A stretch of DNA of 64,000 nt from Halalkalicoccus tibetensis (lineage in GTDB: Archaea > Halobacteriota > Halobacteria > Halobacteriales > Halalkalicoccaceae): positions 434,001 to 498,000 of the forward strand of contig NZ_JBBMXV010000003.1 in NCBI RefSeq assembly GCF_037996645.1, read 5' to 3'. The notes below the pieces were generated by a model, which was not told where the DNA came from, did not search any database, and saw only the letters and a program-made list of their open reading frames with translations. This document shows positions 37,727 to 54,273 of the stretch, one piece after another. Position 1 is the first letter of the stretch. Each line of letters starts with the position of its first letter. The position numbers and the translations under genes were made by a program.

Positions 37727-37839
37727 GTCTCCCCGGAACGGTGCCGATGTTCTAAAGCCGTCGATCGACCGTGTACGGACGCATGCGGGGACCTATCGCT
37801 CTTCCATACATTGATGGTCGCTCGTGCGAATCCTGGCAT

Positions 37840-38835
37840 ATGAGCAGCCTGTTGAACTCCATTAGGCGCGGCGACGCGGGCGACGAGCCCGAGTTCCCCT
37901 CGACCTCGATCGTCATCGAGTGGGAGAACGTCATCCACGCCAAGGAGAGCCGTTCGGAGGCGATGCTTCGGGGGCTGAACGCCCAACTGAACGAGCTCGA
38001 GGATCGCTTTCCCGAGACGCCCGAGATCATCTTCGTCTACAACCCCGACGACGTCGAGGAGAGCCAGATCAGACATTTCGCCTCGCTCGCGCTCGATGAC
38101 CGATACGACCCGCAGTTCGTCGCCTCGCCGGGCTCGCACTTCTACGAGCTGAAGAACGTCGGCGCCCAGCGGGCCACCGGCGACGTGCTCGTCTACGTCG
38201 ACAGCGACGTCATCCCCCAGGAGGGCTGGCTCGACGCGATCGTCTCGCCGTTCCTCGAGGAAGGCACCGACATGGTGCTCGGTCACCCGTTCGTCGAGAC
38301 CGACACCCGGTACAAGTCGGCCGTCGCGATGTTCTGGTTCTTCCCGGCCGAACACGAGGAGTACGAGGGCTACATGGCCTGTAACGTCGCGTTCGACCGC
38401 GAGTCGTTCCTCGAGCACGAGTTCCCCGAGGAGGACTCCTACCGGGGCCAGTGCGTCGAGCTGAAGGACCGTCTGGAAGACTCCGAGAAGGGGCTGCAGA
38501 ACGCACCGAACGCGAAGGTCTCCCATCCCGCGATGAACGGGTTCGACCACTTCCTCAACCGCGCGGTCTGTAGCGGCTACGACTCCGACTACTGGTACCG
38601 TTACGGCGAGGACCCGAGCCGGAAGGAGCGCGCGAAGGCGGCCGTCTCCAAGCTCGAACACCGTGCCCGCCAGGTGGGATACAACGTCCTCTCGCGGCGC
38701 GACTCGATCTCGGACGACCCGGCGACGATCGCCCTGGCGCTCCTGCTCGGGGCCTCCTACTACTCCCTCGAGTTCCTCGCCCGACTCGTCACCATCGTCA
38801 GGCCCGAGCTGATCGAGCGGAACTTCCAGATCTGA
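37840..38835 (+). CDS. Glycosyltransferase, GT2-like
   Basis: 331 residues from the ATG giving MSSLLNSIRRGDAGDEPEF. The fold is GT-A-like: STSIVIEWENVIHAKE as the opening strand, PEIIFVYNPDDVEE, and VLVYVDSDVIPQEGWLDAI with the DSD metal site near residue 125. Conserved NVGAQRATGD precedes it. The C-terminus contains hydrophobic segments (IALALLLGASYYSLEFLARL) that probably anchor it in the membrane. An earlier ATG (37771) would add 23 unconserved residues. It is the first of three plus-strand genes with the GT61 enzyme and a ParB-motif protein. Confidence 0.78.
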   Translation: MSSLLNSIRRGDAGDEPEFPSTSIVIEWENVIHAKESRSEAMLRGLNAQLNELEDRFPETPEIIFVYNPDDVEESQIRHFASLALDDRYDPQFVASPGSHFYELKNVGAQRATGDVLVYVDSDVIPQEGWLDAIVSPFLEEGTDMVLGHPFVETDTRYKSAVAMFWFFPAEHEEYEGYMACNVAFDRESFLEHEFPEEDSYRGQCVELKDRLEDSEKGLQNAPNAKVSHPAMNGFDHFLNRAVCSGYDSDYWYRYGEDPSRKERAKAAVSKLEHRARQVGYNVLSRRDSISDDPATIALALLLGASYYSLEFLARLVTIVRPELIERNFQI

Positions 38836-38914: not shown

Positions 38915-40153
38915 ATGAGCTCGCCGACGGAGCTGCCCGGTCGGGTCGCGGAGATCTATCGGGAACACGGCCCGGAGGTGCTGGCCCGGAAGGCGCTCGG
39001 GTTCCCCAAGTCGGTCGTGTTGCATCGTGGCTTGGAGTTCGTCACCCGCGACGAGCTGAAGCGCCATGTCGCCGACCAGGGACTCCTCTGGCAGGAGATC
39101 ACCGAATCGCCGTGTACGATCCCTGCCGGCGACGTTCCCGAAGAGCTCGGACAGTTCGCCGGGGAGTACCGACCCGACCCCCGCTTCCTCTGCGAGCTAC
39201 CCGACTGTCGGCTGATCGGTCCCGGCGCGGTCGGCCTGCTCGACGGCCGGCGGATCCTCCTCGACACGGCGGGCTCGCACCGCGAGAACTTCTTCGCGGA
39301 CTACGAGGAGTTCCTGGGCTCGAAGACGCCCGAACTGCTGCTCAGGCGATTCACCGATCCCGACCCCGTCCCGACGATGGATCGCTCGCCAGTCCTCCCG
39401 TTGGTTCCGTTCTACAATAACTACTACTACCCCTGGTTCGTCGAATACCTCCCCAAGCTCCGGGCCCTGGAGCGCTACGAGGCCGAGACGGGCCGCGAGC
39501 CGGCGATCCTGATCGAGCGGGACGCCCCCTCGTTCGTCGGCGAGTCCCTGGAGCTACTCGGCTACGGGGACCGGGTCGTCGAGTCGGACGGATCCGAACG
39601 ACGGGTCGAGGAGCTGCTGGTCACGAACCACCGGCTGACCACGTCGTGGGCGGGGCCGAGATACGGCTTCGACCTCTCGATCGAGGACTCTCGATGGGTC
39701 CGTGAGTCGATCCGGTCGGCCGTCGGCGTGTCGTCTGCGGAGCCGACCGAGGGCAAGCGGCTGTACGTCTCCCGACAGGCGACCGATCGAGGGCGGCGCG
39801 TCGCGAACTACGACGAGCTGGAGCCGGTGCTCGACTCCTTCGGGTTCGAGCCGTACGTCTTCGAGGAGCTGCCCTTCCCCGAGCAGGTCCGGCTGGTCTC
39901 GGACGCCGAGGCGATCCTCGCTCCCCACGGCGCCGGCCTCGCGAACGCCCTCTTCGCCGACGACCCGACGGTCGTCGAGCTGTTCCCCGAGACCCACGTC
40001 CGGCCCTCCTACTACCTCCTCTCCCGGCTGCTCGGCTTCGAGTACGAACCCGTGGTCGTCGAGGCCAGCGAACACGACCCGCACGACGACCTGCTCGTCG
40101 ATCCTGAGGGACTCTCGTCCCGGTTGGATGCGATCCTCGACTCCCCCGAGTAG
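38915..40153 (+). CDS. Glycosyltransferase family 61 (DUF563)
   Basis: 412 residues. The C-terminal half carries the DUF563/GT61 pattern: KRLYVSRQATDRGRRVANYDEL, EQVRLVSDAEAILAPHG, then AGLANALFADDPTVVELFP, with PHGAGL being the hallmark. In the middle, VPFYNNYYYPWFVEYLPKL is the conserved N-N-Y-Y-H/P-W motif region. The family transfers xylose, GlcNAc or other sugars; the donor here is unknown. It follows the GT2-like gene by 79 bp on the same strand. Confidence 0.85.
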   Translation: MSSPTELPGRVAEIYREHGPEVLARKALGFPKSVVLHRGLEFVTRDELKRHVADQGLLWQEITESPCTIPAGDVPEELGQFAGEYRPDPRFLCELPDCRLIGPGAVGLLDGRRILLDTAGSHRENFFADYEEFLGSKTPELLLRRFTDPDPVPTMDRSPVLPLVPFYNNYYYPWFVEYLPKLRALERYEAETGREPAILIERDAPSFVGESLELLGYGDRVVESDGSERRVEELLVTNHRLTTSWAGPRYGFDLSIEDSRWVRESIRSAVGVSSAEPTEGKRLYVSRQATDRGRRVANYDELEPVLDSFGFEPYVFEELPFPEQVRLVSDAEAILAPHGAGLANALFADDPTVVELFPETHVRPSYYLLSRLLGFEYEPVVVEASEHDPHDDLLVDPEGLSSRLDAILDSPE

Positions 40154-40216: not shown

Positions 40217-41065
40217 ATGACTGTCGTGGGAACCCTCCGAAAGGCGGTCGCGCGGTGGCGGGACGAGGGCCTCGTGACCCTGATCCGCGCCGCTCTATCA
40301 CGCTCCCGTGATCGGGTGAAGCGACGGCGGCTCCGGCGGAAATACCGGTACGTATCGGACGACGGGATGATCTCGGTGGATCCCGAACGCATAACCCACT
40401 TCCTGGTCGAGGGTCGCCATCCGGCGACACGGTACCGGGTGGAGAAGGGGCTGGTGACGAAGCACGAGCTGATAAAGGCGTACTTCCCGGTCGGGTTCTT
40501 CAGGGGGGCGGTCCTCCCGGGCGAGTGGGACCGACACGGGAAGGCCTATCACTTCGACAGGGTCTACAGGGGGATCAGGAACCACTACGTGGAGGGGGTG
40601 GAGTGGGAACGGACAGAGTACGGCCACCAGATGCTGCTGCTGGACGACCTTTATGACTACTCCTACTTCGATCGGCGGATCAGCCAGTGTGAGTCCCTGT
40701 ACCGATCGCTGAACCGGGATGGCTACGAACCCGCACCACGACCGGAACGAAACGTCGGGGTGAACGTCGGCCGGGACGGAACGCTGATCTTCAACAACAA
40801 GGACGGTCACAACCGGCTGGCGCTCGCCAGAGTCCTCGGAATCGATCGGATACCGGTGGTCGTCGTCGTTCGCCACGCCCGGTGGCAGGCGCTGCGCGAG
40901 GAGATCGCGGCGGCCGAGACGATCGACGAACTCGGCGACCGGGCCCGCCGCCATCTCGACCATCCCGACGTGAGATCGCTCCACGAGTTCAACCGGGCGG
41001 ATCGGTCGGCCGACTCGGCTCTCGACCGTCTCGAACGTTTCGTCGACCGATCGATTGCTCGGTAG
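40217..41065 (+). CDS. ParB/sulfiredoxin-motif protein, glycan-locus family, copy A
   Basis: 282 residues. The N-terminal 45 residues are basic (RSRDRVKRRRLRRKYR). The C-terminal part contains NVGVNVGRDGTLIFNNK, then DGHNR at 196-200 and LALARVLGIDRIPVVVVVRH, which resembles the nucleotide/phosphate-binding pattern of ParB and sulfiredoxin folds (also used by archaeal free-serine kinase SerK). It is a paralogue of the protein at 43446, with shared landmarks ISVDPERIT, GEWDR, HYVEGVEWE and HPDVRSL. I do not know its function; a kinase or ATP-using modifier of a glycan precursor is one possibility. It is convergent with the oxidoreductase gene, with 3 bp between ends. Confidence 0.65.
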   Translation: MTVVGTLRKAVARWRDEGLVTLIRAALSRSRDRVKRRRLRRKYRYVSDDGMISVDPERITHFLVEGRHPATRYRVEKGLVTKHELIKAYFPVGFFRGAVLPGEWDRHGKAYHFDRVYRGIRNHYVEGVEWERTEYGHQMLLLDDLYDYSYFDRRISQCESLYRSLNRDGYEPAPRPERNVGVNVGRDGTLIFNNKDGHNRLALARVLGIDRIPVVVVVRHARWQALREEIAAAETIDELGDRARRHLDHPDVRSLHEFNRADRSADSALDRLERFVDRSIAR

Positions 41066-41068
41066 CGG

Positions 41069-42244
41069 TCAGTTCGGGCGGAACCGGCCGTTGTCCACCA
41101 TGGCCGTCAGCGGGTTGTCCTCGATCTCAAGCGAGAGCTCGACGCGCTCCTGCTGGCGCGCGGACTCCCAGCACCCGAAGATGAGCTCGGTCGATTCGAG
41201 GGCATTCCCCGCCGCCAATGGCGACTCGCGGTCCTCGATCGTCGCGTCGACGACTTCTTGGAGCGCCCGCCGGACGTAGGGCTTGAGGAAGGGGTCCTCG
41301 TCGGCCATGAACACGCGATCCGCCAGCGGCCTGAAGACTTGCGGGCCGGGGGTCGCGTCGTCGAGCTTCCGGAGGACCTTCACCGGGAGGCCGGGATCGA
41401 CCGCGACGTGCGAGACCCGCTCGCCGCCGGTATCGATCCGCGTCCACTCGGATTCGTCGGCGGCTTTCGTCCTGAGCGACGCGCCGTTCGAGTGCCCGAT
41501 CTCGATCGTACCCTCATCGCCTTCGAGGCGCATCAGGCAGTCCCGGTCGGCGCTCCCGGTCTCGGCGAACCCCTCGACGCCGTTCTCGTACTCCCACTCG
41601 GCCATCGCCCGGTTCTCGTTGTGGACGCCGTAGCGGACGTTCTCCTCGTCGTAGACCAGCAGCGACCGGACCCACTCGGGGCTCGCCCCGTCGGTGACGT
41701 AGTGGCACATGTCGAACATGTGAGTGCCGAAGTCGTAGAGGTTCTTCCCGCCGATCTTGACCCGTTCGAGCTCGCCGATGGCGCCGTCGTCGAGCAGGAG
41801 TTTCGCCTGCCGGAACGGGCCGGCGAACCGCCGCTGGTGGTTGATCGTCAGCCTGACGCCCGCTTCCTCACAGGTCTCGACCATCCGCTTGCAGTCCGCC
41901 CAGGTGTGGGCCATCGGCTTCTCGCAGTGGATCGCCTCGACGCCGGCGGCGGCACAGTCGGCGACGATGTCGGCGTGGGTCGTCACCGGCGTACAGACGC
42001 TGACCAGGTCCGGCTCGGCCCCCGCGAGCATCGACTCGTGGTCCTCGTAGACCCGCCGGTCGTCGATGTCGTAGTGCTCGGCGAACGCCTCGGCGTTGGC
42101 CCGCTCGATGTCGACACAGGCGACCAGTTCACAGCCGTCGATCGCCCGATAGGCCGAGGCGTGGCGATACCCCATCGCGTAGCCGACCCCACCCGCCCGT
42201 TCGGGCTCTGGCCCCGTCCCGATGACCGCGACGTCGAGTGTCAT
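41069..42244 (-). CDS. Gfo/Idh/MocA-family oxidoreductase
   Basis: 391 residues. The N-terminal Rossmann fold starts LDVAVIGTGPEPER (GxGxxx variant interrupted by PE), the acidic end of strand 2 is ACVDIER, and the family motif CEKPMAHTWADC (EKP) is near residue 107. A long alpha/beta domain with KNLYDFGTHMFDMCHYV follows, containing the conserved His typical of the C-terminal domain. These enzymes oxidise or reduce sugars or nucleotide sugars with NAD(P), often in the making of aminosugars. Its TATA box is about 28 nt before the ATG. Confidence 0.87.
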   Translation of the reverse strand: MTLDVAVIGTGPEPERAGGVGYAMGYRHASAYRAIDGCELVACVDIERANAEAFAEHYDIDDRRVYEDHESMLAGAEPDLVSVCTPVTTHADIVADCAAAGVEAIHCEKPMAHTWADCKRMVETCEEAGVRLTINHQRRFAGPFRQAKLLLDDGAIGELERVKIGGKNLYDFGTHMFDMCHYVTDGASPEWVRSLLVYDEENVRYGVHNENRAMAEWEYENGVEGFAETGSADRDCLMRLEGDEGTIEIGHSNGASLRTKAADESEWTRIDTGGERVSHVAVDPGLPVKVLRKLDDATPGPQVFRPLADRVFMADEDPFLKPYVRRALQEVVDATIEDRESPLAAGNALESTELIFGCWESARQQERVELSLEIEDNPLTAMVDNGRFRPN

Positions 42245-42267
42245 TCTACCCGACGGTTCTCGATTCA

Positions 42268-42278
42268 GGTATATACGA
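42268..42278 (-). promoter_or_regulatory. TATA element of the Gfo/Idh/MocA gene
   Basis: On the minus strand CGTATATACC lies about 28 nt before the ATG at 42244. The upstream sulfatase-like gene ends 30 bp further up, so this promoter separates them. Confidence 0.5.
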
Positions 42279-42308
42279 CCTCGCTTCTCCCGTTCGATCC
42301 GCAGGCTC

Positions 42309-43319
42309 TCATTCCTTGTAGCCCAACGCCTCCAACTGTTCGGTCACGAGGTCCTCGTCCACCTCGTCCTCCCCGATCGGCTCCTCCGCAGTCGTCTCCG
42401 GGCGGTCCTCCGCGTCGATCACCAGCCACGGTACCCGGCGAAGCCCCTCGTTGTAGGCGTTCTCGCCGTGTCCGTACTGCATCGGCGAGAACAGCTCCTC
42501 CGCCTCGCCGAGCAGCTCCCCGTGATCCGACGTGATCACGGTCTTCCCGTCCAGATGCTCGAGCAACGCCTCCACGTACTCCATCACCGCCTCGAAGTTG
42601 CCCACGTAGGCCCGCCGGAGCTGCTCGTCCGAGATGTGTCCCTCGACGGCCGCGTTCCCCAGCGCGTCGAACATCGTCTCGGCGTCCCCGTAGTCCTCGG
42701 CATGCGTCCACTCGCGAAACCCGATCCGCCGCTCCTCGTACAGCGTCCTCCGGAGCGCCTTCGCGTACGTCCCGTAGTAGGGGGTGTGTGGCTGCATGAA
42801 GTGCACGATGGTCCGTTTGTCGTCGTAGTTCCCGTACTCGTCGACGGCGTACTCGTAGACGTGCTCCGGGCTGCGTTTCTCGTAGCGGCTGTTGTCGGAC
42901 GGATACGTCTCGCCGTACGTCTTCGCGACCCGGTAGAACACGCCCTCATCGAGCGTACTGTCGGCGTGGGGGTTCGCGGTTATGTACACCGTGTCGTGGA
43001 GCTCGCGTCCGTTGAAGTTCCGCTTGATGAACTCCGAGCTCGTGCTTCCCCGCGAGATCACCTCCTCCAGGTCCCCTTCGATCCGGTTGTGGCTCTCGAA
43101 GACGTCGTACCGGCAGGCGTCGAGGACGATCAGGTTGTCCCAGTCCTCCGCCATCACGTCGATGCCGTCCTCGTATCGCCGGGCGTACAGTTTCTCGTGG
43201 GGAACCCTCCGTAGCTCGTCGGTAAACATCGAGGGCTCCCGTATCGCTTCCTTTAGCTTGCTCAGGTTGTATCTCTCCGCAAGCACGATCGCCATCCGTA
43301 CCGGTGGTGCTTGAAGCAT
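42309..43319 (-). CDS. Alkaline-phosphatase-superfamily (sulfatase-like) protein
   Basis: 336 residues. The metal-binding pattern of the superfamily is visible: NLIVLDACRYDVFE near residues 62-75, VHFMQPHTPYYG in the middle and VITSDHGELLGEAEE, with HGENAYNEGLRRVPWLV, near the end. The usual sulfatase signature (C/S-x-P-x-R) is replaced by SRGSTSSEF at 89-97, so the nucleophile may be a Ser or Thr and the chemistry could be phosphodiester or phosphoethanolamine transfer. It ends in LEALGYKE, similar to the C-terminus of the sulfatase at 51363. The ATG at 43319 is preferred over one 24 nt later because GGGAGG lies just upstream. Confidence 0.8.
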   Translation of the reverse strand: MLQAPPVRMAIVLAERYNLSKLKEAIREPSMFTDELRRVPHEKLYARRYEDGIDVMAEDWDNLIVLDACRYDVFESHNRIEGDLEEVISRGSTSSEFIKRNFNGRELHDTVYITANPHADSTLDEGVFYRVAKTYGETYPSDNSRYEKRSPEHVYEYAVDEYGNYDDKRTIVHFMQPHTPYYGTYAKALRRTLYEERRIGFREWTHAEDYGDAETMFDALGNAAVEGHISDEQLRRAYVGNFEAVMEYVEALLEHLDGKTVITSDHGELLGEAEELFSPMQYGHGENAYNEGLRRVPWLVIDAEDRPETTAEEPIGEDEVDEDLVTEQLEALGYKE

Positions 43320-43445
43320 GCGAAAGCCTCCCGTTTCAGGACTGACGTCGATCGGGGGAGAGGGCCGAGCCCAGCACCGAAACTCGATACGGGCCAGTGT
43401 GATCCGAGGGATCGGTTGTGAGCCGCTCCTCTCGGGGATGGGTCG

Positions 43446-44366
43446 TCACTGCAGATCCCGGAGGTCGGGATGGTTCGGGACCGTGCCGTTCTCGTAGAGC
43501 CGGTCACGGTACTCCATCCAGCCGGCGTGCCGGACGAGAAACGCCACCGGGACCTCGTCGAGGTCGAGGAGCTTCGCCATTGAGAGACGGTGGTCGCCCG
43601 CGACGTGCAGCAGCTCGCCCGTCCGGCCGACGTCGACGAGCACCTCCTGGCCCATGCGATCGAGGAATCCCTCGTAGCGCTGTCGATCCCGTTCGTGGAG
43701 CTCCCGTTGACTGCTGAACCCGTCGGTCCGGAACTCCTCGTAGAGCTCGTCGAGGAACCGACACTGCTCGCGGATCTCCTCGGGCGAGGAACAGCCCTGC
43801 CAGGACTCGATCCCCTCGCTGGCCTCCTCCAGCCGTTGCTGAATGAGGTCGATCTCCTCCCAGTCGGCGCCGTGGACGAACCGCTGTTCGAACATCCGAT
43901 AGGTCCCCTTGTTCTCGAACAGCATGTCCTCCCCCCAGGAAGGGTTCGGGGCCGCTTCGATCCCCCGATGGTCGGGCCGGGGTCGATCCCAGTCGCCGTC
44001 CTCGACCGCGCCGAACAGCCGTACCTTTCCCTCCCAGGCGTGGTACTCGCGAACCGACGACCGCGTGATCCGGGCGGGATCGACCCGCTCGATCTTGAAG
44101 GGGTCGGGCGACGCGTCGTACGCGTCGACGTCCCTCGTGTAGACGTGTCGGTGGAACGCCGGCGCGATCCGCCAGTAGAGCTCGGGGTTCGCGTCCCGGA
44201 GCCGCTGTAAGGCCCCCTTCTCGATCGCTCGCTTCGCCGTCCGCTCGATACCCTCCTCGCGGTAGGCGCGGGCGAGCCGTTCCACCGTCGTCTCGGACCC
44301 GTCCCCCTCCCATTTCGCCCCCTCCGCCTCGTCGCTGCGCCCGACGAGGCGTTCCAACGCGCTCAT
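43446..44366 (-). CDS. ParB/sulfiredoxin-motif protein, glycan-locus family, copy B
   Basis: 306 residues from the ATG giving MSALERLVGRSDEAEG; an earlier ATG would overlap the promoter. The N-terminal 90 residues are helical and unlike copy A, but the rest shares order and motifs with it: VDPARIT, GDWDR, EQRFVHGADWEE, then EVLVDVGRTGELLHVAGDHR (AGDHR at 256-260), DLDEVPVAFLVRHAGWM and HPDLRDL. The two therefore form a family. Motif pattern suggests a ParB/sulfiredoxin-like fold. Function unknown. It is divergent from the PP-loop ATPase gene, and the 174-bp region between them holds promoters for both. Confidence 0.65.
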   Translation of the reverse strand: MSALERLVGRSDEAEGAKWEGDGSETTVERLARAYREEGIERTAKRAIEKGALQRLRDANPELYWRIAPAFHRHVYTRDVDAYDASPDPFKIERVDPARITRSSVREYHAWEGKVRLFGAVEDGDWDRPRPDHRGIEAAPNPSWGEDMLFENKGTYRMFEQRFVHGADWEEIDLIQQRLEEASEGIESWQGCSSPEEIREQCRFLDELYEEFRTDGFSSQRELHERDRQRYEGFLDRMGQEVLVDVGRTGELLHVAGDHRLSMAKLLDLDEVPVAFLVRHAGWMEYRDRLYENGTVPNHPDLRDLQ

Positions 44367-44514: not shown

Positions 44515-44540
44515 GCAGTATCGGCCCTGTATTGGACACT

Positions 44541-45869
44541 GTGGTTTCGACGAGTCCCCAGATCACGGTCCGAGACGTCTCCGTCGTGGACGGTAATGAG
44601 GTCCGCTATGACCTCTCGTACTCCCGCTCTCTCCGCCGGTTTTTGACCGATGTCGACCCGTACGTTCGCTACTCCCAGGACGTCTCGGAGGTCCCCGAGG
44701 GCGTCCTCGCCGTCCCGTTGCTCTCGACGCTCTGTCCCGTCGCGTGGATCACCGGCTCCGACCTCTACATCGAGGAGGTCGACGCGACGTTTCTTCGAGC
44801 GTTGCCGGGGCTCCAGCGGGCGTTCGCGGAGCTGTACCCCGACGCGCCGTTCGCCGGCTCCCCGACGATCCATTACAAGGACGGAGTGGACAACGAGTCC
44901 CGGGACGACGTCCCCGGCGACGGGGAGGCCGGCGTGTTGTTCACCGGCGGGGTCGACTCGACGACGACCTATCTCCAGCACCGCGAGAAACGCCCCCATC
45001 TCATCTCGGTCCGAAAGGAGAGCGAGACGCGGGCGAACACCTGGAAACTGCGCCGGCCGATGATCGAGGCGTTCGCCGAGGAGAACGACCTTCGGAGCCA
45101 CTTCGTCGAGACGAACCTCAAGCTGCTGTTCGATAAGTTCATGCTGAACCTCTACTACCGCCACCTCCTCAACGACTCCTGGGATCGGACCATGTACTTC
45201 GGGCTCGGCTACCCCGGTTTCACCGCCCCGATCACCTATCTCGAGGGGATCACGGAACTCCACCAGTCCGTCGACTACCTGCCCCACGATCGCTTTCCCA
45301 ACTCCGCCCGCCCGCGACTGGTGGAGAACCTCCGCTGGGCGGACACCGTCGTCGAGTCCGGCAGCGTCGGGCTGACGCGCCAGGACAAGATCGAACGCAT
45401 CGGCGACTATTTCGCCGGCAAGGACACCGCCTGGCGGATCAGCAGCTGCGACGAGGGCGGCGAGTCCTCGCTGTGCTGCAACGAGTGTGGCACCTGCCTC
45501 CATACGATCATCGGGTTCATCGTCGCCGGCTACGACCCGGCGGACTACGGCTTCGACGTCGACGAGGGGACGTTCGACCGGGTCAAAGCCCACCTGAACG
45601 AGCAGGAGTTCCACGCCGACAGCGTCAAGGCCCGGTTCTGGCTCGAGCTCCAGGACCGTGCCGACCCCGATCGGGTCGACCACTCGCCGGCGGCGGTCGA
45701 GTTCGTCGAGTGGTTCGCGGACGCCCCGATCGCCCCGTCGATCGACCGGCCGCTCCCGCCCCACGAACCGAACTACGAGGCCAGCCTGAAGCGCCGTCTC
45801 TGCATCACGCTTCCCTACCCGCTCGACGCGGCCATCATCGACCGCTACTTCGAGGACCCGTCGTACTGA
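44541..45869 (+). CDS. PP-loop (N-type ATP pyrophosphatase) protein, QueC-like
   Basis: About 442 residues. The PP-loop TGGVDST is at residues 135-141 (family SGGxDS), inside VLFTGGVDSTTTYLQH. A later cysteine cluster, CDEGGESSLCCNECGTC, with Cys at 303, 312, 313, 316 and 319, resembles the zinc site of QueC-like enzymes. Such proteins adenylate a carboxylate or amide and then attach ammonia, sulfur or an amine. A glycan locus is an unusual place for one; it may build an amidated or modified sugar acid. The first 130 residues are a separate N-terminal domain not recognised. The ABC exporter follows 107 bp downstream. Start could also be TTG at 44532. Confidence 0.7.
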   Translation: MVSTSPQITVRDVSVVDGNEVRYDLSYSRSLRRFLTDVDPYVRYSQDVSEVPEGVLAVPLLSTLCPVAWITGSDLYIEEVDATFLRALPGLQRAFAELYPDAPFAGSPTIHYKDGVDNESRDDVPGDGEAGVLFTGGVDSTTTYLQHREKRPHLISVRKESETRANTWKLRRPMIEAFAEENDLRSHFVETNLKLLFDKFMLNLYYRHLLNDSWDRTMYFGLGYPGFTAPITYLEGITELHQSVDYLPHDRFPNSARPRLVENLRWADTVVESGSVGLTRQDKIERIGDYFAGKDTAWRISSCDEGGESSLCCNECGTCLHTIIGFIVAGYDPADYGFDVDEGTFDRVKAHLNEQEFHADSVKARFWLELQDRADPDRVDHSPAAVEFVEWFADAPIAPSIDRPLPPHEPNYEASLKRRLCITLPYPLDAAIIDRYFEDPSY

Positions 45870-45976: not shown

Positions 45977-47776
<1,800 letters not shown>

Positions 47777-52962: not shown

Positions 52963-54273
52963 ATGTCGTACGTCAGATCACAGCTCCCCGATAGGATCCC
53001 GTGGGTCGACGCGTGGCTCCCGTTTCTCTGCATCGTCGCCGCGCTCGCGACCAACACGTGGCTCGTCTCGCCGACGGTCGGCTACGTCGTCTCCGTGTCC
53101 GTACTGGCGGCTACCGGCGCCTACGTCGTCTTCGTCTCGGACGTCGAGATTCGCATCGATGTACTGTTCGCGGTGCTGTTCGGTGGGTACTGGCTCCTTC
53201 TGGCCGCCGGCTGGCTGGTCGACGGATCATCCGCCCGCCTGCTGTACGTCGCAATCACGCCCCTCAGCGTGGTCGTGGCCGTCTTCCTCCTCCCCGCGGT
53301 CGTCGATCGATACCGTGGCGAGTTCATCGCGGGGCTGACCGCCCTGGGCGTCGCCATCGCCACCATCGGGTTCGGGATGCTGCTCGCCGAGCGGATCCTG
53401 GAGATGTCGATCCACTGGTGGACGGGCGGGTTCGTCTACGGCGTGCCCGGCTATCGGACGAACTCGGTGTTCGCGAACCCGAACACCTACGGCTTCCTGA
53501 TGATGGTCTGTACGATCTCGGCCGTCGCCCACGTCGCGAACCGCGGGCCCGGCCTTGCGGGAATCGGGGCGATCGCCCTCTGTGGCGCGGCGGTGGTCAC
53601 GAGCGACTCGACGGCGGCGCTCATGGGGACCGGGTTCGGACTGGCGGTGTTCGTGGCAGCGATCCGGCGACGGCTCGCGATCGCGCTGTTCGTCGTGGGT
53701 GCGCTCGCCGTCGTCGGGCTGATCGCCGGCGTCTATACGGGCCTGCTGTCCGACCTCCCGTTTCTGGGCCGCATCGAGGCGCTTGTGGGCTCGTTGCTCG
53801 CGGTCCGGGTCGTCCTCTGGCAGGCGTCGATCGAGCGCCTGCTCGTGAATCCGCTCGTTGGCATCGGCTTCGCCGACACCGCGGCCGAGATCCGGCCGTA
53901 CGTCCCCGATGACGGGCCCGTCGGCTTCGGGACGCACAACTCCTACATCCACATCCTCCTTCAGACCGGCCTGGTGGCCGGCTCGCTCTATCTGCTCGCC
54001 GTGTTCTACGCGGGCGCGAAGGCGACCTACAGCGCCCTCCTGGCCGACTATCGCCCCGCCCCAGCCACGGGCGGTATCGGCCGGTGGTGGCCGATCTACG
54101 TCCTGGCCACGCTCGCCGCGATCCTCGTGGCGCTGGTCTTCGAGTCGATGACGATCGGCGGGCTCTCGCTCGATTCGGTCCTCGTCGGGCTCTATCTCGG
54201 GTTGGCGCTCTCGCTCAGCGGCTCGTGGCTCGTCAGGCTCCGGGCGGACCACGCCGCTCGCTCGATCCGGTGA
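52963..54273 (+). CDS. O-antigen ligase/polymerase-type membrane protein (Wzy/WaaL-like), copy 4
   Basis: 436 residues with about 11-12 membrane helices from the ATG giving MSYVRSQLPDRIPWVD; an earlier start adds 21 residues of noncoding character. The order of motifs is that of copies 1-3 but with more change: SVFANPNTYGFLMMV, SDSTAALMGTG, VLWQASIERLLVNP and HNSYIHILLQTG. It lacks the HQxFEGYT segment of the others, so it is the most divergent paralogue and may act on a different sugar. It follows the sulfatase on the same strand. Confidence 0.8.
   Translation: MSYVRSQLPDRIPWVDAWLPFLCIVAALATNTWLVSPTVGYVVSVSVLAATGAYVVFVSDVEIRIDVLFAVLFGGYWLLLAAGWLVDGSSARLLYVAITPLSVVVAVFLLPAVVDRYRGEFIAGLTALGVAIATIGFGMLLAERILEMSIHWWTGGFVYGVPGYRTNSVFANPNTYGFLMMVCTISAVAHVANRGPGLAGIGAIALCGAAVVTSDSTAALMGTGFGLAVFVAAIRRRLAIALFVVGALAVVGLIAGVYTGLLSDLPFLGRIEALVGSLLAVRVVLWQASIERLLVNPLVGIGFADTAAEIRPYVPDDGPVGFGTHNSYIHILLQTGLVAGSLYLLAVFYAGAKATYSALLADYRPAPATGGIGRWWPIYVLATLAAILVALVFESMTIGGLSLDSVLVGLYLGLALSLSGSWLVRLRADHAARSIR

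Follow-up and report, generated by a model that had tools for sequence, protein, structure and literature searches.

Proteins of the ParB-CTPase fold bind cytidine, adenosine, or guanosine triphosphate (CTP, ATP, or GTP), and the 2025 survey of the fold by Kaljevic et al., which defines Box II as GxxR, stresses their roles as switches (PMC12704722). In SerK, SbnI, and sulfiredoxin (Srx), the fold is an ATP-binding module for enzymatic work and stands without helix-turn-helix (HTH) and dimerization domains (PMC12704722). SerK, a ParB-fold serine kinase dependent on adenosine diphosphate (ADP), was first annotated as a ParB (PMC5120207). The subject here is two proteins, P0001 and P0002, of Halalkalicoccus tibetensis, a salt-loving archaeon; both are encoded in a 64,000-nucleotide stretch of contig NZ_JBBMXV010000003.1 (positions 434,001 to 498,000), hereafter the window. 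The original prediction, made from the letters of this DNA, read them as paralogous proteins with ParB/sulfiredoxin motifs in a glycan locus that may phosphorylate a sugar or alcohol precursor, and the precedent it invoked, an archaeal ParB-fold small-molecule kinase, is borne out by SerK (PMC5120207).

Core fold, conservation, and spread of the family

Both open reading frames (ORFs) are real at the coordinates first given, with P0002 on the - strand, a detail absent from the original description, and the two proteins carry their motifs in the same order (Table 1), as originally described. They share 26% identity (BLASTP E = 1e-12), and one profile recovers 177 further sequences in which the same positions are kept (179 in total), so the resemblance is not due to chance. 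By BLAST, P0002 is the sole clear relative of P0001 in the genome; a profile search of the genome adds one weak match, a CBS-ParB protein (L249). P0001 and P0002 fall in different, deeply separated clades and are therefore an old pair of separate subfamilies rather than the product of a recent duplication, so that "paralogous" holds in the deep sense and not for a close pair. Neither protein matches any entry of Pfam or NCBIfam.

The conservation pattern across the 179 sequences appears enzyme-like. In P0002 numbering, the positions that vary little or not at all are P97, G124, W126, D127, W169, G216, R248, G250, G257, R260, P273, R279, H280, W283, and H299-P300-D301, with W126, G250, R260, and H280 conserved at 100%, D127 and R248 at 98%, and HPD at ~99%. 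The resulting motif set consists of W-D, R-x-G, GxxR, RH, and HPD. GxxR is the Box II P-motif, with glycine at 97% and arginine at 100%; in the GxHR form of the SerK/SbnI type the histidine reaches 87%, and P0001 has asparagine where histidine is usual. A distant member (L267:2574-3401) has the phosphate loop GGGCHRF, resembling the GGCHR of sulfiredoxin; it lacks the aspartate of W-D and sits in an apparent nonulosonic-acid-type sugar cluster.

AlphaFold2 models built with a 71-sequence alignment reach a predicted local distance difference test (pLDDT) value of 87.2 and a predicted template modeling (pTM) score of 0.80 for P0001, and 88.1 and 0.86 for P0002. In the Foldseek listings against the PDB, ParB/Noc/KorB/PadC, sulfiredoxin, SbnI, PF0380 (a SerK homolog), and Atu1540 (uncharacterized) account for all 50 rows of P0002 and the top 45 of P0001. 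The TM-scores normalized to the query are ~0.11-0.18, with the small core alone aligned, and are low because the family-specific helix makes up most of each protein. In a sequence search of the PDB, the family profile matches SbnI best (E = 0.11), exactly at the GxHR loop, and in genome after genome it also finds archaeal CBS-ParB proteins. By hhalign, the family aligns with 18 CBS-ParB proteins along 65 columns that surround the GxHR loop (E = 1.9e-7); four unrelated profile pairs, serving as controls, give E = 0.0095-0.61. The uniform Foldseek matches, the profile matches to SbnI and CBS-ParB proteins, and the hhalign value relative to its controls together establish that the core belongs to the ParB/Srx superfamily, and the predicted ParB-fold module, with its ParB-like core, is thus present.

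None of the proteins in the window matches PF02195 (ParB_N), nor does this model match anywhere in the window genome, and no HTH or ParB dimerization domain scores above the cut-off in the family. The best PF02195 value among 71 members is E = 0.038; because only 1/71 reaches even this value, the family probably lies outside the survey of Kaljevic et al.

Relatives of P0001 occur in 156 and relatives of P0002 in 152 of 392 sampled genomes of the class Halobacteria. The family is found in ~40% of haloarchaeal genomes, with up to seven copies per genome. Further members are present in two archaea that belong to the phylum but not to the order (G429 and G576) and, by search of a 17-row alignment against contigs, in one nanohaloarchaeon metagenome-assembled genome (MAG) and one Trueperaceae bacterium MAG; the bacterial occurrence is this one MAG and could be wider or a binning error. 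A single-sequence scan of genome contigs gave no match, and viral contigs gave one weak match. Plasmid-borne relatives are labeled "hypothetical protein" at most. The family is undescribed, large, and unnamed, a new family of a known fold. It seems to form a large branch of the ParB-CTPase fold that has gone unlisted, with a clear biological setting, because the fold survey searched with PF02195, whose cut-off the family fails to pass, and the word "polysaccharide" is absent from the main text of that survey (PMC12704722). Literature searches found no paper tying ParB-fold proteins to polysaccharide loci.

Glycan loci as the genomic setting

The neighborhood survey took 20 kb around each of ~100 members, along with 20 control stretches drawn from those genomes; genes were called by a home-made composition-based script and clustered, and cluster representatives were annotated with Pfam. 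In 59 of 85 loci the member has two or more glycan genes no more than five genes away, compared with 0 of 340 control positions, a contrast that is somewhat favorable because the glycan categories were picked from clusters seen near members. Across 86 loci, the neighbors include Wzx-type flippases (40 loci, 18 as direct neighbor), glycosyltransferases of families GT4 (37), GT2 (29), and GT61 (12, 11 of them direct), epimerases (22), nucleotidyltransferases (20), dehydrogenases of uridine diphosphate (UDP)-sugars (15), AglB (15), and alkaline-phosphatase (AlkP)-superfamily proteins (12 and 8). A Pfam scan of 131 immediate neighbors and 131 control genes agrees with this association: flippases, GT61, GT4, GT2, epimerases, AlkP-like, and Gfo/Idh proteins are direct neighbors and are absent from the control families listed. 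The family thus typically, if not always, lies in glycan clusters, and partition genes are not its typical neighbors.

The glycan-locus context holds outside Halobacteria, where neighbors were assigned by reading translations rather than by Pfam. Near the members lie a sugar-nucleotide cluster that looks to be of the nonulosonic-acid type in G429 (L267); glycosyltransferases, a sulfotransferase-like gene, and an AGE-like gene in G576 (L268); UDP-sugar and glycosyltransferase genes surrounding two family members in the nanohaloarchaeon (L241); and an ATP-binding cassette (ABC) exporter, glycosyltransferases, and an acyltransferase-like gene in the Trueperaceae MAG (L222). A special link to cytidine diphosphate (CDP)-glycerol glycerophosphotransferases, suggested by reading L267 and L268, was dropped, with two cases in the surveyed haloarchaeal loci. 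A conserved neighbor family of ~375 amino acids (aa) with no Pfam match, which bears the motif PxGxNGxYxDPETPVRNTxHWL and is AGE/GH-like by eye (L117:12131-13273, L268:5903-7078), accompanies ParB-fold members in haloarchaea and in one distant archaeon.

In the window, a Gfo/Idh/MocA oxidoreductase gene and an AlkP-superfamily gene sit between P0001 and P0002 (Table 1). The oxidoreductase agrees with the original reading; the "sulfatase-like" gene does match PF00884 but lacks the signature of a type I sulfatase, as the formylglycine motif C/S-x-P/A-x-R is missing from the first 150 residues in 14/14 homologs, and AlkP-superfamily enzyme is therefore the better name. Its family conserves LD-x-C-R-x-D (with a nearly conserved cysteine), S-x-GS, and DHG, and a C-terminal stretch of the protein matches choline sulfatases in the PDB. 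It is more likely a phosphatase- or phosphotransferase-type enzyme, and such an activity would fit phosphate-based decoration.

Table 1. Positions in the window of P0001, P0002, their motifs, and neighboring genes
Feature	Position	Strand	Remarks
P0001, ParB/Srx-fold family protein 1	40217-41065	+	282 aa
VDPERIT of P0001	40376-40396	+	First core strand; P56 98% conserved
GEWDR of P0001	40520-40534	+	W104 100%, D105 98% (179 sequences)
VEGVEWE of P0001	40589-40609	+	W130 99% (179 sequences)
DGHNR of P0001	40802-40816	+	Box II/GxxR, the phosphate-binding motif in the ParB fold; 97% G and 100% R
RHARW of P0001	40871-40885	+	R219 98%, H220 100%
P0002, ParB/Srx-fold family protein 2	43446-44366	-	306 aa
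N-terminal helical module of P0002	44205-44285	-	Residues 28-54; possibly common to GT61 and AlkP-like neighbors
VDPARIT of P0002	44064-44084	-	
GDWDR of P0002	43983-43997	-	W126, D127
VHGADWEE of P0002	43854-43877	-	W169
AGDHR of P0002	43587-43601	-	Box II GxHR motif
RHAGW of P0002	43518-43532	-	
GT2-type glycosyltransferase	37771-38835	+	Same locus
GT61 glycosyltransferase (PF04577)	38915-40153	+	Often adjoins the family directly; appears to carry the N-terminal module
Gfo/Idh/MocA oxidoreductase (PF01408)	41069-42244	-	E 3.5e-27
Alkaline-phosphatase-superfamily protein	42309-43319	-	PF00884 "Sulfatase" match; no formylglycine motif
PP-loop protein	44532-45869	+	QueC-like (weak); kept at the same place in the sister genus
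MsbA/HepA-like ABC exporter	45977-47776	+	

In the sister genus, the cassette runs GT2, GT61, P0001, Gfo/Idh, P0002, PP-loop, ABC, with P0001 doubled and no AlkP-like gene between Gfo/Idh and P0002. The PP-loop protein, 64% identical to its sister-genus counterpart, bears a GGVDSTT motif and a zinc-knuckle-like CCNECGTC motif; its QueC match is sub-threshold (E = 0.03), and it may act in the glycan pathway as an amidating or activating enzyme. The glycan island extends over at least 34.9-55.4 kb of the window and contains an O-antigen ligase (Wzy_C; 52963-54270, + strand) along with more GT4 and sulfatase-family genes. A scan for sigma-70-type promoters and terminators, a type unsuited to archaea, found nothing. 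The STT3/AglB oligosaccharyltransferase (PF02516, PF22627) has no match in the window genome, which is 97% complete, and AglB is present in 9/9 other genomes of its family. Its absence reflects either a real loss or an assembly gap; if the loss is real, AglB-type N-glycosylation would not be supplied by the glycan locus of the window.

In many members, the opening 30-40 residues follow the pattern "R..Y..+G...L.+". When a profile built from these N-termini was run over the leading 80 residues of 1893 non-family genes, it matched 15 genes at E up to 0.1 and 0/340 controls, and 10 of the 15 are GT61 (cluster 15) or AlkP-like (cluster 13) proteins. When the profiles of the family, GT61, and AlkP-like proteins are compared pairwise, the N-terminal stretch is the sole alignment, each time a weak one (P 0.0095-0.017). 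The module, ~30 residues long with weakly conserved Y..+.G...L.+, is seen in the window at 38915-39010, 40217-40310, and 44205-44285 and in homologs of the 42309-43319 protein. It may be common to ParB-fold, GT61, and AlkP-like proteins of glycan loci, presumably as a membrane- or partner-docking helix. If confirmed, this sharing would help predict which enzymes act together at the membrane.

A candidate phosphotransferase and its alternatives

The favored explanation, at a probability of roughly 0.45, is that the family members are membrane-associated, nucleotide-dependent phosphotransferases that act on a glycan or its precursor in the building of surface or secreted polysaccharides. In the core pocket, the GxHR/GxxR loop and the invariant arginine would bind the ATP or ADP phosphates. 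The acceptor site would be formed by the inserted family-specific helical region (with the invariant W-D and W) and the conserved R-x-G, RH, and HPD, with D127 or H280 as a candidate base or acceptor-site residue. The phosphate acceptor would be a sugar or alcohol group, carried by a glycan, by a lipid-linked intermediate, or by a precursor of the glycan, and the short N-terminal helical module would hold the enzyme at the cytoplasmic membrane beside GT61 and AlkP-like enzymes. A fuller version, namely a widespread family of ParB/sulfiredoxin-fold glycan kinases that act on sugars of archaeal, and some bacterial, surface polysaccharides or lipid-linked glycans and are kept together with GT61 and AlkP-like enzymes by an N-terminal membrane-docking module common to all three, is more doubtful. 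Were the proteins kinases, haloarchaeal cell surfaces would contain phosphorylated glycans as a little-recognized component, and the family would offer a gene handle for finding them. Of the phosphorylation role originally proposed, the ParB core and the glycan setting stand; a step that phosphorylates a sugar or alcohol is still a prediction, and the family is not placed as an ortholog of SerK or SbnI.

Several points weigh against the phosphotransferase explanation. The Foldseek E-values never fall below 0.04, and the matches cover just ~65-100 residues. The histidine of GxHR is replaced by asparagine in 13% of members, P0001 included. SerK and SbnI have a catalytic glutamate after the first strand (E30 and E20, respectively); no glutamate is among the >80% conserved positions near VDPxxI, and the hhalign alignment stops short of that region. 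The asparagine and the lack of an evident counterpart of this glutamate weaken a simple SerK analogy. Additionally, no glycan gene was counted near the member in 13 of the 85 loci, one of which, for example, lies beside a hydrogenase cluster. The conserved set would also fit an enzyme that uses a nucleoside triphosphate (NTP) without being a kinase, and the catalysis and ligand binding ascribed to the family are predicted activities.

The main rival is a nucleotide-driven switch, in which, as in ParB, NTP binding and hydrolysis would alter conformation and thereby gate or scaffold glycan polymerization or export at the membrane. The fold is that of the CTP switches, whose survey stresses such roles (PMC12704722), and the frequency of flippases in the neighborhood would suit it. 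However, the HTH and ParB dimerization domains are not detected, and the conserved acidic, histidine, and arginine residues in family-specific regions resemble an acceptor site and exceed what a switch needs. A switch is unlikely.

Another unlikely proposal is that the proteins are a different kind of NTP- or phosphate-using transferase, one that acts on an already phosphorylated group or activates or ligates a non-sugar substituent, with no net phosphorylation of sugar. Sulfiredoxin provides the precedent, as it uses the fold to activate its substrate by means of ATP and then pass it on, and the co-occurrence of Gfo/Idh, AlkP-superfamily, PP-loop, and AGE-like (cluster 31) proteins suggests decoration chemistry. 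Against this, there is no specific sign of such chemistry, and SbnI, which among proteins of solved structure is the nearest by sequence, is a kinase.

A DNA-binding or partition-related ParB homolog, carried on mobile elements beside variable glycan islands, is highly improbable and a chromosome partition role was rejected: the fold would allow it and megaplasmids carry some of the members, with a parA gene ~12 kb away in one case, but no HTH was found, the genome has no PF02195 match, and glycan genes are the direct neighbors across many genomes, as they are in four distant lineages.

Comparison with described ParB-fold proteins

The ParB/Noc/KorB CTPases have the ParB-CTPase core and Box II GxxR in common with the family; unlike them, the family has no HTH, no ParA partner, no PF02195 score above the cut-off, and other neighbors. 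Sulfiredoxin shares the minimal ParB/Srx core and the G-x-H-R loop (GCHR in Srx), whereas its catalytic cysteine is not conserved in the family, where the position is variable and mostly R/K/Q/D/N (the exception being L267, with GGCHR).

The archaeal CBS-ParB proteins (~260 aa) are homologous to the family over ~65 residues around the GxHR loop. They differ in having two CBS domains and DGHHR and in lacking the RH..W motif, and their alignment to the family falls short of the W-D region. One copy also occurs in the window genome, and such fusions (L249:477-1271, L250-L266) occur both in Halobacteria and in genomes elsewhere in the phylum.

The free-serine kinases SerK (TK0378/PF0380) and SbnI share the core fold and the GxHR loop with the family, and both they and the family stand without HTH and ParB dimerization domains. 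The family differs in having an extra inserted helical region and an N-terminal module, with no match elsewhere in the chain. The settings differ as well, SerK and SbnI belonging to serine/cysteine or siderophore metabolism and the present family to glycan loci.

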